Shown here piece after piece: positions 4,509-27,734 of a stretch of DNA of 27,823 nt (the stretch's first letter is position 1; every line of letters starts with the position of its first letter). The stretch covers positions 1-27,823 of IMG/VR virus record IMGVR_UViG_3300036846_001011. One strand, 5' to 3'. The notes beneath the pieces are model-generated. The model made no database searches, had not been told where the DNA came from, and worked only from the letters and a program-made list of their open reading frames with translations. This DNA is from a virus. Position numbers and translations under genes: made by a program.

Positions 4509-4844
4509 ATGGGAACCGCGGCCCCGCGACCGTGCACCGCGTGCGGGCGCCTCGTCTACGATGGCAGCGGGCGCTGCGCGCGGCACCGTCGCCCCACCGC
4601 GCACGCCCGCGGCTACCTCACCCCATGGGCCGCGTATGCCCGCGCATGGTTGGTGCGGTACCCGTGGTGCGGGCAGCGACTCGACGGGCAGCAACACCCC
4701 GAGCATTCGTGGTGCACACGTCGCGGGGTGCGGGCGCGCGCGCGCGTCGTCGATCACATTCGATCGCTCGGGGCCGGTGGTGCGTTGCTCGACCCGACCA
4801 ACCACCAGTCGCTCTGTTCCTCGTGTAATCGGCGCAAATCCTGA
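4509..4844 (+). CDS. HNH-family endonuclease (HNN variant)
   Basis: The 111-residue product has the small phage HNH plan: Cys pairs (C9/C12 near the start, C103/C106 near the end), then V-V-D-H83-I, N99-H-Q-S-L-C, and C-S-S-C-N-R-R-K-S at the C-terminus. In this family the third catalytic residue is usually a His after the last Cys; here it is Asn (N107), so the motif reads HNN, a variant known in other active members. HNH proteins next to terminases help DNA cleavage during packaging in HK97-like phages; here about 4 kb of other genes lie between them. The ATG at 4509 follows the previous stop by 16 bases. Confidence 0.8.
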   Translation: MGTAAPRPCTACGRLVYDGSGRCARHRRPTAHARGYLTPWAAYARAWLVRYPWCGQRLDGQQHPEHSWCTRRGVRARARVVDHIRSLGAGGALLDPTNHQSLCSSCNRRKS

Positions 4845-5045: not shown

Positions 5046-5654
5046 GTGATCCTGCTGGTTTCCGGGGCCACGGTGACGGTCCGCAGGCATTCGAGCGTCG
5101 GCGAGTTGATCGAACCCCGCGGCGGGCACGACCCCGACTGTTTGAAACTCATCCCCGGTGCGTGGGCGATGGACAACGGCGGGTACTCGGGGTTCGAGGC
5201 CGAGCGGTTCGTGGCGATGCTCGAAAAGTTTCACGGGCGCCGCGGGTGCCGGTTCGTCGCCTCGCCCGACGTGGTCGCCGACGCGCACGCGACGCTCACG
5301 CGGTGGCCGTTTTGGTCGGCGGTGATCCGCGGCGTCGGGTTCCCGCCCGCGCTCGTGTTGCAGGATGGGATGACGGCCGCCGATGTGCCGTGGCGCGAGG
5401 TCGCCGCGGTATTCGTTGGCGGCAGCACCGAATGGAAACTCGGCCCGGTCGCGAGCAACCTCGTCGCGATCGCGAAGGGCCGCGGGTTGTGGGTGCACTA
5501 CGGGCGCGTCAACTCGGCGAAGCGGATCTGGTGGATCGCACGCAACGGCGCCGACTCATTCGACGGGTCGAGGAACTCGTGGTTCCCTGATATCAAGATC
5601 CCGCACTCGATCGCCTCGATCGACGCGACGACACAACAAGGGGTGCTGCTATGA
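5046..5654 (+). CDS. DpdA-family 7-deazaguanine DNA modification protein (TGT-like)
   Basis: From the GTG at 5046 (GGGGG 5 bases upstream) the product is 202 residues. It shows the motifs of phage DpdA-like, tRNA-guanine-transglycosylase-related proteins: W-A-M-D43-N-G-G-Y-S-G-F, A-S-P-D75-V-V, V-L-Q106-D-G, F-V-G-G-S-T-E-W-K-L, W-V-H-Y-G-R-V-N-S, and a final D-S-F-D173-G-S. By analogy with tRNA transglycosylases, Q-D-G and G-G line the base pocket and the last Asp is the likely nucleophile. DpdA enzymes exchange guanine in DNA for preQ0-type bases, often shielding phage DNA from restriction. No queuosine-precursor genes (folE, queC, queD, queE) lie in the window, so precursors would come from the host or from genes elsewhere. 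Coupled to the next gene by ATGA. Confidence 0.75.
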   Translation: MILLVSGATVTVRRHSSVGELIEPRGGHDPDCLKLIPGAWAMDNGGYSGFEAERFVAMLEKFHGRRGCRFVASPDVVADAHATLTRWPFWSAVIRGVGFPPALVLQDGMTAADVPWREVAAVFVGGSTEWKLGPVASNLVAIAKGRGLWVHYGRVNSAKRIWWIARNGADSFDGSRNSWFPDIKIPHSIASIDATTQQGVLL

Positions 5655-5845
5655 CCTCGGCCGAGCGGGCGCGCCGCGCGATGTTGCCCGACTACGCGGC
5701 GAAGGCGGGCCGGGCGTCGGTGGCGTCGGCGCGTCATCATCGCCTGTCGCCGATCGATCGCCGTCGGCGCGCGTTGCCGCGGCGAGCCGTCGCCGTGGTG
5801 CGCCGCGGATCGTGGACCGTGTTGATCGAGGTCGCCCGCCCATGA
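5651..5845 (+). CDS. small Arg-rich hypothetical protein (64 aa)
   Basis: A 64-residue, very basic protein (clusters SAERARRA, RHHRLSPIDRRRRALPRR) ending in a short hydrophobic strand (SWTVLIEVARP). No domain is recognised. Its ATG overlaps the DpdA-like stop and its TGA overlaps the methyltransferase ATG, so it is translated between two DNA-modification enzymes and could be a DNA-binding accessory. That role is inference only. Confidence 0.5.
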   Translation: MTSAERARRAMLPDYAAKAGRASVASARHHRLSPIDRRRRALPRRAVAVVRRGSWTVLIEVARP

Positions 5846-7383
5846 GTGATCCCACCACCGTCGACGCCCTCGTGCCCGACCCGCACAACCGGCGCAAGCG
5901 CACGCCGCGCAACCTCGACATGATCGCCGCGTCGCTGCGCGAGGTCGGCGCCGCGCGCTCGATCGTGATCGACGAGCACAACGAGATCCTCGCGGGCAAC
6001 GGCGTCGTCGAGAGCGCCGCGGCGGCCGGGATCTCGAAGGTGCAGGTCGTCGACGCCGACGGCGACACCGTGATCGCGGTGCGACGGATCGGCCTCACCC
6101 CCGAGCAAAAACGCGCGCTCGCGATCTTCGATAACCGGACCGGCGAGTTGGCCGAGTGGAACGTCGAGCAACTCGCCGCCGACGAGGTCGCGGGCCTCAC
6201 CTTCGAGCCATTCTTTTTTGAAGAGGAACTCCGCGCGCTGCTGCCACCGGGCGGCCGCCGCGGGCACACCGATCCCGATGCGATCCCTGAGCCGGTCGCG
6301 ACGTCGATCAAGGTGGGCGACGTGTTCGCGCTCGACGACCACCGGGTGTTCTGCGGCGACACCACCGACCCCGCGGCGATCGCGCGCCTCGTGGGCGACG
6401 TGCCGTGTGCGCTGCTGCACGCCGACCCGCCGTACGGCATGGGCAAAGAGGCCGAGGGGATCGCGAACGACAACCTGCGCCGCGAGCACCTCGACGCGTT
6501 TCAGATGCAATGGTGGGGCGCGTGGTCGGCGGCGCTCGCCGAGAACGGCAGCGCGTACGTGTGGGGCACGGCGCCGGATCTCTGGCGGCTCTGGTACTGC
6601 GGCGGCCTCGGCGACGTGCCGGGCCTGATGGTGCGCAACGAGATCGTGTGGGATAAGGGCGCCGCGTTCGGCATGGCGTCGGACCTGCACCACTCGTATC
6701 CAGTCGGGACCGAGCGGTGCTTGTTCGTCATGCGCGGCCAACAGTTCCTCGGCAACCAAAACATCGCCGACTATTGGGACGGCTACGAACCGTTGCGCCT
6801 CTGGCTCGAAGGCGAACGCGATCGCGCGGGGTGGAAGAACAGCGACGTCAACCGGATCACCAACACGAACATGGCGGGCCACTGGTTGACGAAATCGCAG
6901 TTTCACCCGATCCCCGAGCGGCAGTACAACGTCCTCGCCGCCGCCGCCGAGGGCCGCGCGTTCACCGAGCCGTATGCCGATCTGTTCGCGCGGTTGTTTC
7001 CCGACCTGCGCGGCGACGGCAACGCCTACCGGCGCGAGTTGTCCGCGCAGCTACGCGAGGCCCGCACGTTTTTCGACAACGCGCACGAGACGATGACCGA
7101 CGTGTGGAAGTTTCCGCGCGTGCACGGTGAGGAACGGTTCGGCCACGCGACACCGAAACCGGTGGCGATGGTGATGCGCGCGTTGCGGTCGTCGAGTGAA
7201 CCGGGCGACGTGGTCGGCGTGCCGTTCGGCGGCACCGGCCCCGAACTGATCGCGGCCGAGCAACTCGGCGCCCGGCGCGTCGTCGTCGCCGAGATCGAAC
7301 CGCAGTACTGCCAGATCATCATCTCGCGGTGGGAAGCGTTCACGGGGGCGAAGGCGGCGAAGGTGGGCGAGTATGGCGGGTGA
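5842..7383 (+). CDS. ParB-like domain / DNA methyltransferase fusion
   Basis: A 513-residue protein. Residues about 5-110 form a ParB/sulfiredoxin-type domain (VDALVPDPHNRRKR, then D-E-H-N-E-I-L-A-G-N-G-V-V), common in phage methylase fusions. The catalytic domain has D195-P-P-Y, the motif IV of N6-adenine/N4-cytosine methyltransferases, and near the C-terminus P-F-G-G-T-G followed by A-A-E-Q-L-G-A-R-R-V-V-V-A-E-I-E-P, the AdoMet-binding motif I region. Motif IV before motif I indicates the beta-class order. The usual Asp in D-P-F-x-G-x-G is replaced by Val (G-V-P-F-G-G-T-G). An unusually long insert separates the motifs. It likely methylates phage DNA against restriction; the target sequence cannot be read from the gene. 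ATGA-coupled to its upstream neighbour. Confidence 0.88.
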   Translation: MSDPTTVDALVPDPHNRRKRTPRNLDMIAASLREVGAARSIVIDEHNEILAGNGVVESAAAAGISKVQVVDADGDTVIAVRRIGLTPEQKRALAIFDNRTGELAEWNVEQLAADEVAGLTFEPFFFEEELRALLPPGGRRGHTDPDAIPEPVATSIKVGDVFALDDHRVFCGDTTDPAAIARLVGDVPCALLHADPPYGMGKEAEGIANDNLRREHLDAFQMQWWGAWSAALAENGSAYVWGTAPDLWRLWYCGGLGDVPGLMVRNEIVWDKGAAFGMASDLHHSYPVGTERCLFVMRGQQFLGNQNIADYWDGYEPLRLWLEGERDRAGWKNSDVNRITNTNMAGHWLTKSQFHPIPERQYNVLAAAAEGRAFTEPYADLFARLFPDLRGDGNAYRRELSAQLREARTFFDNAHETMTDVWKFPRVHGEERFGHATPKPVAMVMRALRSSSEPGDVVGVPFGGTGPELIAAEQLGARRVVVAEIEPQYCQIIISRWEAFTGAKAAKVGEYGG

Positions 7384-19212: not shown

Positions 19213-21462
19213 ATGGCGATGACCGGCGTCATGCTCGCCGACTTTTCCGCGTTCCGCAAGGAAGCGGATTCCTCGACGGCCTCACTGAAACAACTCGAAT
19301 CGGGCGGCGACGCGGCGGCGGCGAAGCTGCAAAAAATCGGCGAGGGCCTCGGGGCGAACATCAAACAGGCGCTCACCGACCCGGTCGGCGCGGCGGCCGA
19401 CGCCACCAAAGGATTGAGCAGCGCGCTCGTGACGGTGGCGACGCCTGCCTCGTTGGCGGCGGCGGGCCTGCTCGGCCTCGGCACCGCGGCGCTCGGCCTC
19501 GCGACGAGTGCGGCGAAGGTCGTCGCCGAGTTCGATGACCTGCACGACAAAACCGACATCAGTGTGCCGACGCTCTCGCGGCTCTCGAACGCGGCGCAGG
19601 TGGTCGGCGCCGACATGGGCACGCTCACCAACGTCGTCTTCAAACTCGAAGAGGGGATGGGCAACAACACCGACGCGTTCCAAAAGGGCCTCGCGCAGAT
19701 GGGCCTGTCGACCGACGCGCTCAAATCGGCGGGGCCGGATCGGTATCTCGAACTGATCACCGCGGGCCTGCAAAGCATCCCCGACGCGAGCACGCGCGCC
19801 GCCGCGGGCACGGCGGTGATGGGCAAACAGTACCGCGACGTCGCCGCCACGCTCAACGATCTCGCCACCGGCCTGAAACTCACCGCCGACATCACGCCCT
19901 TCACCGCGCAGGAAGCGGCCGACGCCGAGGCGTTCCAGTTCCAGATCGCGAGCATGAAGACGCACATGTCGGCGTTGACCACCGAACTCGGCACGGCGCT
20001 GATCCCCGCGGTGAGCGGCACCCTCACGGTCCTCGGGCGCATGGGCGAGGCGATGGTGCACGTGGCCGATCTCGGCGGCCTCGTGTCGACCGCATGGAAG
20101 GGGATCAAGCTGTCGCTCGGTGAGGCGGATCTCGCCGCGCAAACCGCCAACGCGACGGCGGCGACGACGAATCAGTTGTTCGCCGAGCAGGGCGCGACCG
20201 CGTCGTCGGTCGCCGAAAAAATGTTGGAGATGGGGTACTCCGAAAAAACCGTCGCCGAGCAGACGGGCCTCACCGCCGAACAGGTGCGATCGCTCAACAC
20301 CGCGCTCACCGCCACCAAGGGCGCCGCCGAGGCGTACGCGGCGACGTGGGACCGCGTGAACGGATTGCTGGCGCAGGGGAAACCCACGCTCGATGGCGTG
20401 TCGGAGAGCACGAAGGGCCTCGCGCTCGACATGCAAGAGGCCGGGGTGGCGATGAAAGACATCACGGCGACCACCGGCCTCACCGCGGGGCAGATGGCGC
20501 TGCTGAAGAAAAACACCGACGAGGCCACGAAAAGTTTCACCGAGTGGAAAACCGCCACCGCCAACGTCGACGCGGCGATGGTGCCGTGGACCGAAACCCT
20601 CAACAGCATGAGCGGTGCGGTCGTCGAGGCGATCAAGTACGCGCTCTCGATGGGCGTGTCGCAAAGTGATCTCCAGAAATCGTTCGGCGTCACCGCTCTG
20701 CAGATCAAGGCGGTGCAGATCGCGCTCGAAGAAGAATCGGCCGCGATGGCGACCGAGGCCGACCTCGCGATCGAGATGGCGAAACGCCGCGTCGAGATCA
20801 CGCAGCAACTCACGAAGGCGACCAACGACGCCGTCGTCGCGAAACTGAAACAGCAGCAGGCCGAGGAAAACTTTCTCGCCGAGCAACTCAAAGACGCGCA
20901 GGCGCAGGATGCGATTCAGCAGGGGATCAAGACGACGGCCGACACCGCGGCCGCGGCGGGGCCGGTGATCCAGTCGGCGTTCGAGCGGTCATTCGCGCAG
21001 TCGGCGGCGTCGTTCGATCAGTTCAAGGGTGTCGTCGTCGCGGGCACGCAACAGATGGGCGACGCGATCGCCTCGTTTAATGCGTCCACCGACCCCGGCG
21101 CGTACGTCGAACTGCAACGAAAAATCCGCGACGCGCAGAACGCGCGCGGCGGGTTCTATGTCGACACCGGGTTCGCGCCGCCGCCGATTCAAACGCGCGA
21201 TGTCGGGGGGCCGGTGGTCGCGGGCCAGTCGTATTTGATCGGCGGCGGCAACGCCCCCGAGTTGTTCACGCCCGGCGCCACGGGGTTCGTCACCCCGACA
21301 AAGGCCACCGCGTTCGGCGGCGCCGGGGGCGGCGGGGGCGGTGTCGTCAACCATTTCTACATTACGCAACCGCTCGGCACTCCCGACGCGATCGCGCGCG
21401 CCGTCAATGACGCGCAGGTCGCCGCCGCGAAGGGGCAAGGCGTGCGCCTGCCATACGCATGA
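19213..21462 (+). CDS. tape measure protein (749 aa)
   Basis: The second-longest gene in the window, in the tape-measure position. The product is helical and Ala-rich, with a hydrophobic stretch around residues 70-105 (LAAAGLLGLGTAALGLATSA). Around 337, 404 and 476 come three degenerate helix-turn-helix-like repeats (G-Y-S-E-K-T-V-A-E-Q-T-G-L-T-A-E-Q; M-K-D-I-T-A-T-T-G-L-T-A-G-Q; S-Q-S-D-L-Q-K-S-F-G-V-T-A-L-Q). A coiled coil follows (VAKLKQQQAEENFLAEQLKD). The end has the family-typical G-G-P-V-V-A-G-Q-S-Y-L-I-G-G-G-N-A-P-E-L-F. At about 1.5 angstrom per residue the tail would be about 110 nm (inference). GGAAGGA precedes the ATG. Confidence 0.93.
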   Translation: MAMTGVMLADFSAFRKEADSSTASLKQLESGGDAAAAKLQKIGEGLGANIKQALTDPVGAAADATKGLSSALVTVATPASLAAAGLLGLGTAALGLATSAAKVVAEFDDLHDKTDISVPTLSRLSNAAQVVGADMGTLTNVVFKLEEGMGNNTDAFQKGLAQMGLSTDALKSAGPDRYLELITAGLQSIPDASTRAAAGTAVMGKQYRDVAATLNDLATGLKLTADITPFTAQEAADAEAFQFQIASMKTHMSALTTELGTALIPAVSGTLTVLGRMGEAMVHVADLGGLVSTAWKGIKLSLGEADLAAQTANATAATTNQLFAEQGATASSVAEKMLEMGYSEKTVAEQTGLTAEQVRSLNTALTATKGAAEAYAATWDRVNGLLAQGKPTLDGVSESTKGLALDMQEAGVAMKDITATTGLTAGQMALLKKNTDEATKSFTEWKTATANVDAAMVPWTETLNSMSGAVVEAIKYALSMGVSQSDLQKSFGVTALQIKAVQIALEEESAAMATEADLAIEMAKRRVEITQQLTKATNDAVVAKLKQQQAEENFLAEQLKDAQAQDAIQQGIKTTADTAAAAGPVIQSAFERSFAQSAASFDQFKGVVVAGTQQMGDAIASFNASTDPGAYVELQRKIRDAQNARGGFYVDTGFAPPPIQTRDVGGPVVAGQSYLIGGGNAPELFTPGATGFVTPTKATAFGGAGGGGGGVVNHFYITQPLGTPDAIARAVNDAQVAAAKGQGVRLPYA

Positions 21463-24400
21463 TCCTCACCAAAGCCGTCTCGGGATTGGCGCGCTCGGGC
21501 GCGACGCGCTCGGGGTTTCCGATCCTGCGCGGCACGCAGTCGAAACTCTTCGCGATCTCGAACATCGCGCGATCGGGGGCGACGCGCTCGAACTATCACA
21601 GCACCAAACCGTTCATCACGATCAACGGCGTGCCGATCGCGTGGGGCAGTCATCACACGCCCGACGACCCCGGCATCCTCGCCGAGTCGCTCACGATCCA
21701 GTTGGCCGTCAACGCGACGCCCGCGACCCTCAGCATGATCGCGCGGCAGTACGTCCCGATCGAAGGCGCCGACGTGGTGCTCACGCTCGGATCGCCGAAC
21801 AACCTGCGGCGCGAGTTCGGCGGCACGATCCTCAGCACGCGGCACCGCTACGTCGGCGACAAACCGGTCGCGGCCAACATGATGTACGACGTCGCCTGCA
21901 TCGATTGGATGTGGGGGTTGGGTCGGCGCAAGGTGTCGGGCGAGTACACCGCCACCACCGTCGCCGCGATCGCCGCGTCGCTGATGACGTACGCGCCCAC
22001 CGGCTACACGTTGTGGGTCGAACCCGATATCGGCGCCGAGGTGATCGACGAAATCTCGTTCACCGAAACGACGCTCGCCAACGCGTTCTCGCAACTCACC
22101 AAGCGGGTCGGCGGCGATTTTCAGTGTGACTTTTTGAAGGTCGTGAAACTGTTCTTCACCGATTCGACGATCACGCAACCCGGCATCGTCAACGCGACGC
22201 ACCCGACCATGAACTCGATCGCGTGGGTGCGCGATCTGTCGCAAGTGATCACGCGGTGCCTCGGCGAGTTCGGCGGATCGACGGCGCTCGAACAGATCGC
22301 GCCCGCCTCGACGCTGCTGCCAGTCGACACCGCCGCGTGGTACCTCGCCGCGGGCGGCGTCGTGCTCGTGAACCAACAGCGCGTCACGTACGGCGGCCTC
22401 GTGGTGGGCGGCGGCGGATCGCTGGTGGGGCCGGGCGCCGCGCCAACCGGCGCGCCCAACGTGGTCCTCGCGACGGGTGCAGGCGTCGACCTCGGCGCCC
22501 ACGACTACGCGGTCACGTTCCGCACGGCGTCGGGTGAGTCGATCCCCGGTCCGCGCGTGTCGGTCGTCGTCGGGTCGTTCCTGCCGCCCACGAGTGCGCC
22601 GGTTGCGGGCACGCGGCAAGGTGGCCCCGGCCCCGATCCCGGCACCCACGATTACGCGGTGACCTTCATTGTGTCGGGCGGCGAGACGGTGCCCGGCCCG
22701 CGGGTGACGGTCGCCCCGACCCTCGTCGACGCCCCGCCGACGGGGCCGACGCCCGATAGCGTGTCGCCGGGTGCAGGCCCCGATGCGGGCGCGCACGACT
22801 ACGCGTGTTCGTTCCTCACGGCGACCGGCGAAACCCCGGTGGGGCCGATCGGGTCGCAAATCACCACCGGGCCGATGACGCCGCCGACCGGGGCGCCCGG
22901 CGTCGGCGCGATGTTGCCGGGGCCGACGGTGTCGGCGCTGCCGCCCGCGCGGTACGACTACGCCCTGTCGTTTCAGATCGCGAGCGGCGAGACGACGTGC
23001 GGCCCGCTCGGGTTGATCGACACCACGCGACAGGCCCCGCTCACGCCGCCCGGCCCGCTCGTGATCGATCAACACATGGACAGCACGCAGTGGGTCGTGA
23101 CCAACGCGAGCGGGCACGCCGGGGATCGCGTGCGGTACTGCTATTCGTACAGCACGACCTATCAGTGGAACGACATGCAACAGGAGTCGGCCTTGTCGCC
23201 GCCGTCGGCCGAGATCATGGTGCTGGTCGGCGTCCCTCTATCGAATTACGAGACGGTCCAGTACCGCGCCGTCTCACAACCGATCGCCGGGCCGCTGGAT
23301 TCGCGCATTCAGAATCAGCACATCTGGATCAGCATCAACGGCGCGCAGTGGGCGTTGTACGCGACGATCCCGGCGAGCAACGTGCAATTCACGCTACAGG
23401 TGAACGCCTCGTTTGAGAACAGCGGCGGCCTTCCGGGGCAGCGGCCGCCGCCCGCCGCCGTCTATGGGCCGAGCGGGACGGTGCCGTTGTCGTGGGCGAG
23501 TGGCGGCAATGCGAGCGTGGCGTTCCGCCTCTATCGCCGCGTGAGCGGATCGGGCACGTTGCAACTCGTGCGACAGTTCACCAACGCCGTCGGCCAGTTC
23601 GGGATCCTCGCGCCGACGACGGCCCCGCAAGCGTACGTCAGCGGCTCCGGGCAAGGCCCGCTCAGTGTCGGATGGTATTCGTGGCGCGTCACCTTCGTGA
23701 CCGCCGAGGGGGAAACCGAACCCGGCCCCACAACGAACCTCGTGCAGTTCACGAACCCGGCGGTGTCGGGCCGCGCGGATCTGTACACCATCCCGACCGG
23801 CGCGGCCGACGCGGGCGTGACCGCGCGCAGAATTTACCGCACGACCGCAGGCGGATCGGTGTTCAAGCTGGTCGCGACGCTCAACGACAACACGACGACG
23901 TTCTACACCGACTTCATCGCCGATGCGAGTCTCGGCGCCGTCGCGCCGAACGCGAACACCACGGGCGATCGCGTGCTCGCCGGAAACCTCGGCCCCGCGG
24001 CGCCGGGCACCAACACCGCCGTCATCAATACGGTGCATGTGTCGAGCATCCCGCGCGGCGCCGCAGGCATCACCGGTCGCCGCCTCTATCGGCGCTCGGG
24101 TGGGGCGGGCCTGCGGTTCCTCGCGACGCTCGCCGACAACAGCACGAGCGCCTACACCGACACGACGGCGAACGCCGGATTGGGCGCGGCCCCGCCCGCG
24201 GGCAACTCGGCGTACCTGCTGCAACTCCCGCTCACCAACATCGCGATCGGGAGTGCACTGGTGACGGGGCGCAAACTCTATCGCACCGCGGCGAACGCCT
24301 CGCAATTGAAATTGTTGGCGACGCTCGCCGACAACGTGACCACCACCTACACCGACGCGACGGCCGACAGCGGCCTCGGGGCGAACGCGCCGACGGTGAG

Positions 24401-25301
24401 CACCGCGCAGGCGGCGCAGGTGCAGTTGAGCGCGATCCCGATCGGCGCCGCCGCGGTCACCGCGCGCGTGATCTATCGCACGAAGGCGGGCCTCGCCCAA
24501 TTGCAGTTGCTCACGGTGATCGCCGACAACGTGACCGCGACGTGGATCGACACCGCGCTCGATGCGACGCTCGGCGCCAACGTGCCGACGAGTGACACCT
24601 CGCTCCTGCAGCAACCGAGCGGCAACGTGCAGGCCGGATCGGCGCTGCTGCCGTGCGCGAGCATCGCGGCGTTCCGATCGACGGGCGGGTGGGCGATCGC
24701 CGGATCGCAGAACATCCGGTACACCGGGATCACCGGATCAAACCTCTCGGGCATCCCGGCGACCGGCCCCGGCGCGATCACCGCGACGCTCACGTTCAAC
24801 AGCACGGTCGTCGCGGCGGCGATGCTCACCGCGATCCCCGCGAGCGGCGTCGGCGCGATCAAGTACCCGATTCTCAAAGGCGACCCGGTGAACATCTTCG
24901 TGCAGGAAGACGACCTCGACGCGCAGGCCGCGGTGCGCGCGCAGATCCCCGGCAGCGACGGGATCATCGAAGACGAACTCCAAGACGGCCGGTTGTCGTA
25001 CACCGAGGGGAAAGCGCGCTGCCGCGCCCGGCTCGACATGCTCGGGGCGCGCGACGCCGACGGCAAGGTGGGGATCATCACCGCGAACTACGTGTGCCGC
25101 GATATCAACTCGATCGCGGGCGCCACCGTCACGATCAACATCGGGCCGCCGATTAACCTGCGCGGCGACTACTTGATCCAACGGGTGACCGTCGGACAAT
25201 TCTTCGTGCCCAATTTGAATCCGACGTACACCGTCGAGGCGTCGAGCGTGCGGTTCTCGGCCGAGGCGTTCCTGCGCGCGGTCCGCGAGGCGCTCACGTA
25301 A
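21459..25301 (+). CDS. tail hub/tip protein with inserted tandem repeats (1280 aa)
   Basis: The ATG overlaps the tape measure stop. Residues about 50-260 resemble tail-hub domains of the gp27/gpD kind (PFITINGVPIAWG; E-T-T-L-A-N-A-F-S-Q-L-T-K-R-V-G-G-D-F-Q-C-D; K-L-F-F-T-D-S). Residues about 1150-1280 look like the hub's last part (EDDLDAQAAVRAQI, R-G-D-Y-L-I-Q-R-V-T-V-G-Q). Between them lie two repeat sets: a D-Y-A-V-T-F...S-G-E-S-x-P-G-P motif starting near 347, 395, 445 and 498 with a fifth near 737, and four copies of a G-x-x-x-V-T-A-R-x-I-Y-R-T...D-N-x-T-T-x-Y-T-D unit near 785, 868, 933 and 999. The repeats look like immunoglobulin or fibronectin-like beta modules. ARSGATRS occurs twice in the first 45 residues. 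Host-binding tail tip is inferred. Confidence 0.8.
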   Translation: MILTKAVSGLARSGATRSGFPILRGTQSKLFAISNIARSGATRSNYHSTKPFITINGVPIAWGSHHTPDDPGILAESLTIQLAVNATPATLSMIARQYVPIEGADVVLTLGSPNNLRREFGGTILSTRHRYVGDKPVAANMMYDVACIDWMWGLGRRKVSGEYTATTVAAIAASLMTYAPTGYTLWVEPDIGAEVIDEISFTETTLANAFSQLTKRVGGDFQCDFLKVVKLFFTDSTITQPGIVNATHPTMNSIAWVRDLSQVITRCLGEFGGSTALEQIAPASTLLPVDTAAWYLAAGGVVLVNQQRVTYGGLVVGGGGSLVGPGAAPTGAPNVVLATGAGVDLGAHDYAVTFRTASGESIPGPRVSVVVGSFLPPTSAPVAGTRQGGPGPDPGTHDYAVTFIVSGGETVPGPRVTVAPTLVDAPPTGPTPDSVSPGAGPDAGAHDYACSFLTATGETPVGPIGSQITTGPMTPPTGAPGVGAMLPGPTVSALPPARYDYALSFQIASGETTCGPLGLIDTTRQAPLTPPGPLVIDQHMDSTQWVVTNASGHAGDRVRYCYSYSTTYQWNDMQQESALSPPSAEIMVLVGVPLSNYETVQYRAVSQPIAGPLDSRIQNQHIWISINGAQWALYATIPASNVQFTLQVNASFENSGGLPGQRPPPAAVYGPSGTVPLSWASGGNASVAFRLYRRVSGSGTLQLVRQFTNAVGQFGILAPTTAPQAYVSGSGQGPLSVGWYSWRVTFVTAEGETEPGPTTNLVQFTNPAVSGRADLYTIPTGAADAGVTARRIYRTTAGGSVFKLVATLNDNTTTFYTDFIADASLGAVAPNANTTGDRVLAGNLGPAAPGTNTAVINTVHVSSIPRGAAGITGRRLYRRSGGAGLRFLATLADNSTSAYTDTTANAGLGAAPPAGNSAYLLQLPLTNIAIGSALVTGRKLYRTAANASQLKLLATLADNVTTTYTDATADSGLGANAPTVSTAQAAQVQLSAIPIGAAAVTARVIYRTKAGLAQLQLLTVIADNVTATWIDTALDATLGANVPTSDTSLLQQPSGNVQAGSALLPCASIAAFRSTGGWAIAGSQNIRYTGITGSNLSGIPATGPGAITATLTFNSTVVAAAMLTAIPASGVGAIKYPILKGDPVNIFVQEDDLDAQAAVRAQIPGSDGIIEDELQDGRLSYTEGKARCRARLDMLGARDADGKVGIITANYVCRDINSIAGATVTINIGPPINLRGDYLIQRVTVGQFFVPNLNPTYTVEASSVRFSAEAFLRAVREALT
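22497..23040 (+). repeat. four tandem FN3/Ig-like motif repeats inside the tail hub gene
   Basis: At 22497, 22642, 22791 and 22950 the gene encodes H/Y-D-Y-A followed by a beta strand and S/T-G-E-x-x-x-G-P, with 48 to 53 residues between copies. A fifth, more diverged copy (G-W-Y-S-W-R-V-T-F-V-T-A-E-G-E-T-E-P-G-P) begins near 23668. At DNA level the copies share short identical runs (for example ACGACTACGCG) but have drifted. Confidence 0.7.
23812..24600 (+). repeat. four ~65-residue repeats in the tail hub gene
   Basis: Copies start near 23812, 24062, 24255 and 24453. Each encodes V/I-T-A/G-R, then Y-R, a short turn, L-x-L-L-A-T-L-A-D-N, T-T-x-Y-T-D and an L-G-A-x-x-P linker. The last copy has W-I-D in place of Y-T-D. 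The spacing is about 64 to 83 residues. The order strand, turn, strand, D-N, Y-T-D suggests a small beta domain repeated in tandem. Confidence 0.7.
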
Positions 25302-27472: not shown

Positions 27473-27486
27473 CCGCCCGGCGCCGA

Positions 27487-27734
27487 TTTGCGGAGTGTTT
27501 TTGCGTAGTCGCTGTAAGTAGTGGGCGCTGCTGGACTTGAACCGGCGGCCTCGTGCGTGTGAACGACACGATCCAAGGGCCGCTTCTTCGCGTGTTTCCT
27601 CAATAAAACCGCCACAAATCGCCGATCTCGACCCGCCGCACTACGCAAATCCTCGCCACGGAAAGCCACGTTTTACCGAATGAATCCACACCTTGCCGGA
27701 TCGATTTGGGGAGTGGTTTTGGGGAGTGGTTTTT
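27487..27734 (+). repeat. three 16-bp repeats flanking the att core (putative integrase arm sites)
   Basis: TTTGCGGAGTGTTTTT at 27487-27502, TTTGGGGAGTGGTTTT at 27705-27720 and again at 27718-27733, all in the same orientation. One copy lies 20 bases left of the tRNA core and two, overlapping by 3 bases, about 140 bases to its right. Tyrosine integrases bind such arm-type repeats on both sides of the core in attP. The integrase gene itself is not in the window. Confidence 0.6.
27522..27563 (-). tRNA. truncated tRNA-Val(CAC) 3' half, candidate att core
   Basis: On the minus strand the sequence reads anticodon loop TTCACAC (anticodon CAC, Val), 3' anticodon stem GCACG, variable loop AGGCC, T arm GCCGG-TTCAAGT-CCAGC with one C.A mismatch, acceptor strand AGCGCCC and discriminator A. 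All lengths fit tRNA. The next bases upstream (TGTCG instead of CGTGC) do not continue the anticodon stem, and no D arm or GGGCGCT 5' strand follows, so this is a 3' fragment, not a working tRNA. Temperate phages carry such fragments to restore the host tRNA after integration. Confidence 0.7.

Follow-up and report, generated by a model that had tools for sequence, protein, structure and literature searches.

The window analysed here is the whole of the linear IMG/VR record IMGVR_UViG_3300036846_001011, 27,823 bases from an uncultivated phage. Its genes for a terminase, portal, head maturation protease, major head protein, head-tail adaptor, head closure protein, major tail protein, tape measure and tail fibre all lie on the plus strand. 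Small ORFs follow the tail fibre region to ~27.47 kb, and directly after them, on the minus strand, lies a 42-nt tRNA-like segment (hereafter the core). The head and tail genes thus reach right up to the site, and the record ends 260 bp beyond the core. Left of the terminase are genes for a RusA-like Holliday junction resolvase and an HNH endonuclease (637-1281 and 4509-4844). A single ORF at 5383-7383 has matches to both ParB-like nuclease and DNA methyltransferase families, a fused ParB-methyltransferase protein. The tail region also includes a 1280-aa ORF (21459-25301) with internal repeat motifs, such as RxIYRT and LADNxTTxYTD, for which PHROGs returned no match. Searches of the INPHARED phages and PLSDB plasmids found no similar DNA.

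The core (27522-27563, minus strand) corresponds to the 3′ half of tRNA-Val(CAC) (TTCACACGCACGAGG...AGCGCCCA), as a preliminary description of the locus had proposed. Read on the minus strand, it consists of an anticodon loop with anticodon CAC (TTCACAC), a 5-nt stem strand (GCACG), a 5-nt variable loop (AGGCC), the T arm (GCCGG, TTCAAGT and CCAGC), an acceptor strand (AGCGCCC) and the discriminator (A), with segment lengths of 7+5+5+5+7+5+7+1 nt. One pair of the T stem is a C-A mismatch, and the discriminator is followed by CTA, not CCA. The pattern of such a half tRNA occurs once in the window, where Markov resampling gives an expectation of 0.01. The fragment runs to the tRNA 3′ end and lacks the 5′ half: there is no acceptor or D-arm strand on that side of the core, and ARAGORN called no full tRNA gene in the window. 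Rfam returned no tRNA match for the core, as may be expected of half a tRNA. The bases before the loop had been described as unpaired, which holds for the two closing pairs of the anticodon stem and for the missing remainder of the 5′ half; however, the five bases preceding the loop (TGTCG) form the three outer pairs with GCACG, a partial complementarity that would be in keeping with a core-type inverted repeat of imperfect form.

Repeated sequences flank the core. The 16-bp motif noted earlier, TTTGSGGAGTGKTTTT, starts at 27487, 27705 and 27718 and nowhere else in the window, and 16-bp repeats of this kind on both sides of a core arose in 1 of 60 resampled sequences. The presence of the motif on both sides is borne out, but the repeats are better described in register as a 13-bp unit, with two tandem copies per side. 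On the tRNA-3′ side the pair consists of ACTACGCAAAAAC and ACTCCGCAAATCG (27484-27509, minus strand; 27484-27496 and 27497-27509) and begins 12 bp past the 3′ end of the core. On the opposite side, where an integrase gene would be expected, it consists of ACTCCCCAAAACC and ACTCCCCAAATCG (27702-27727, minus strand; 27702-27714 and 27715-27727) and begins 164 bp before the 5′ end of the core. Paired tandem repeats on both flanks were seen in none of 2000 Markov sequences. Arm-type direct repeats thus stand on both sides of the core, as in the attP of tRNA-targeting phages. A scan for viral contigs carrying the tandem arm repeat of the window returned none.

The window, which stops 260 bp past the core, contains no tyrosine integrase. 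An ORF on the minus strand is open at the contig end (27600-27821), with its stop codon 36 bp before the core, a position akin to that seen in the contigs L099, L085 and L089. Homology searches with the rightmost minus-strand ORFs, this one included, gave no convincing integrase match; from its place, it may be the C-terminal tail of an integrase, but this is a guess.

The site could in principle be a prophage junction, attL or attR, with host DNA on one side, and the contig is indeed linear and ends close to the core. In an integrated prophage, however, the full tRNA gene is restored at whichever junction has the phage DNA on its tRNA-3′ side (PMC4383910). A hybrid site with phage genes on this side, as here, would need a complete tRNA, and ARAGORN detects none; arm sites of the same sequence also occur on both sides of the core. 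The tRNA-3′ side holds 27 kb of phage genes, including the tail module. The opposite side bears phage arm sites and is devoid of an acceptor or D-arm strand. Host DNA is thus found on neither side. The preliminary description had argued for an intact attP from the arm repeats. Its conclusion is upheld on stronger ground than the repeats alone, since an integrated hybrid site would carry the 5′ half of the host tRNA, and we consider a prophage junction very improbable.

We then compared the core with others of its type. A degenerate scan of IMG/VR for Val(CAC) halves of the core type returned 13 contigs, 12 of which encode an integrase with a PF00589 match. The exception, L101, carries a complete tRNA-Val(CAC) with a GGGCGCT/AGCGCCC acceptor stem, demonstrating that such tRNA genes exist; its 3′ half is identical to the core at 32 of 42 positions and its acceptor strand is the same. 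L097, L104 and L108, called as full tRNAs by ARAGORN, were not accepted as such, since they have no GGGCGCT acceptor strand before the loop. Scans for viral contigs with the exact core 35-mer, and with the full anticodon stem including GCACG, found none.

The nearest cores are those of L099 (3300045119_000482) and L106 (3300047408_000092). The core of the window is identical to that of L099 at 38 of 42 positions, the L106 core being the same as that of L099, and the match extends over 52 bp at 90.4% identity, with the base that opens the anticodon loop as its exact end point. That phage DNA should resemble half a tRNA by chance might be entertained for a stretch of 42 bases to which Rfam assigns no tRNA, but the expected frequency of the pattern is low, and this match to two integrase-adjoining sites refutes it in practice, leaving a chance resemblance a negligible probability. 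The L099/L106 sites share with the window the anticodon stem strand GCACG, the sequence CACYACTTACAG after the acceptor strand, and the layout of the arms: tandem pairs with a period of 13 bp begin 12-13 bp beyond the core on one side and some 150-175 bp ahead of it on the other, the L099/L106 distances being put at 13 bp and about 160-175 bp. In both contigs the tyrosine integrase is encoded on the strand of the core and reads toward it, running through the arm pair to a stop codon 53 bp before the core. The arm sequences themselves differ, with the repeat CTACCAGACAC in L099/L106 and ACTCCSCAAAWC in the window, and because of this the arm-binding part is probably not alike in the two kinds of integrase. 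The L099 integrase used as a query matched only L099 and L106 themselves.

This comparison also bears on whether the core is a decayed tRNA remnant of an earlier recombination that is no longer used. The C-A mismatch in the T stem, taken as decay, and the CTA after the discriminator could both be read in this way. Yet CTA follows the discriminator in five other Val-type attP loci as well, and the arm pairs keep the L099/L106 spacing despite their differing sequence, which suggests a maintained site. Decay therefore seems to us a slight possibility.

Given the anatomy of the site, its recurrence beside integrases in relatives and the lack of any tRNA 5′ half, we are confident that a temperate tailed phage has its intact attP here, with a presumed tyrosine integrase just beyond the right contig end and tRNA-Val(CAC) as its presumed host target. 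The points against are that the window includes no integrase, that exact scans of genome_contigs found no host tRNA, that Rfam gave no tRNA match for the half alone, and that the T stem is mismatched. Most likely, the phage inserts at this site into a bacterial valine tRNA gene. The integrase, whose gene is most likely on the minus strand, would bind the core and the 13-bp arm pairs to either side of it, and the anticodon-loop region of the core would recombine with the same region of a tRNA-Val(CAC) gene in the host. The displaced host half would then give way to the 3′ half brought by the phage, and the tRNA gene would stay complete. We place the crossover in the anticodon loop (27557-27563, minus strand), the presumed region of strand exchange, by inference from the point at which tRNA similarity starts and from the known anticodon-loop subsite (PMC4383910). 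The attP indicates a temperate lineage and marks the point at which the genome opens for integration.

The tRNA-Val 3′ half can also be used to search for the host. Such a search, suggested in the preliminary description, was run as exact pattern scans of genome_contigs covering 84,980 species and gave no match, which is weak evidence either way: the patterns demanded a GCYGG T stem and would miss hosts with another one, such as the GCAGG of L099.

The terminase of the window has 48 relatives in IMG/VR, and a PF00589 match was found in 11 of the 26 records searched among them. In seven of these relatives, ~20-350 bp separate the integrase stop codon from a tRNA 3′ half whose T stem is paired throughout. 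By our own reading of the loops, rather than a tool call, the halves are of Met(CAT), Glu(TTC) (twice), probable Gly(CCC), Ala(CGC), Arg(CCG) and, in G006, Val(CAC). In five of the seven the half lies on the integrase strand just past the stop codon, the layout expected for the window. An eighth half, of Met, occurs in L082 near the other end of the record, with the integrase match at the contig end. In L082 and L083 (G003), the record seems to have its ends in or close to the integrase gene, with an integrase match at one end and the tRNA-Met half near the opposite one; no terminal repeat was found in this record. Three relatives with an integrase (G011, G012 and G022) have no tRNA half near its stop codon, so by this test not all members of the group use a tRNA.

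Across L081, L085, L086, L089, L093, L094 and L095, phages with related terminases, the attP halves derive from six or more different tRNAs and stand beside different integrases, which points to exchange of integrase-attP modules. We tentatively suggest, with somewhat less than even confidence, that these phages combine a common head-and-packaging module (terminases 57-72% identical to that of the window) with interchangeable integrase-attP cassettes for at least six tRNA genes, and that the cassette of the window is of the Val(CAC) type, its arm sequence having diverged from that of L099/L106 with no change in core or spacing. If so, recognition of the arms would evolve independently of that of the core. 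The relatives aimed at six tRNAs would form a set for testing target switching by integrase modules.

The kind of site described here is well known, and that of the window is a further example, in itself ordinary. In lambda-type attP, as in the window, arm-type sites stand to either side of the core, but the lambda core is not in a tRNA gene, and the number and spacing of the arms are different. Another parallel among known systems is the attP of tyrosine-integrase phages and genomic islands that target tRNA genes at the anticodon-loop subsite (Islander class A, PMC4383910, which cites Williams 2002): as in the window, it contains the part of the tRNA gene that runs from the anticodon loop to the 3′ end. 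Integration at class A sites restores the tRNA gene, as would be the case here. The window differs from the class A sites in that the integrase, which adjoins the site in its relatives, is missing from the contig, and in that the host tRNA is presumed from the phage-borne half.
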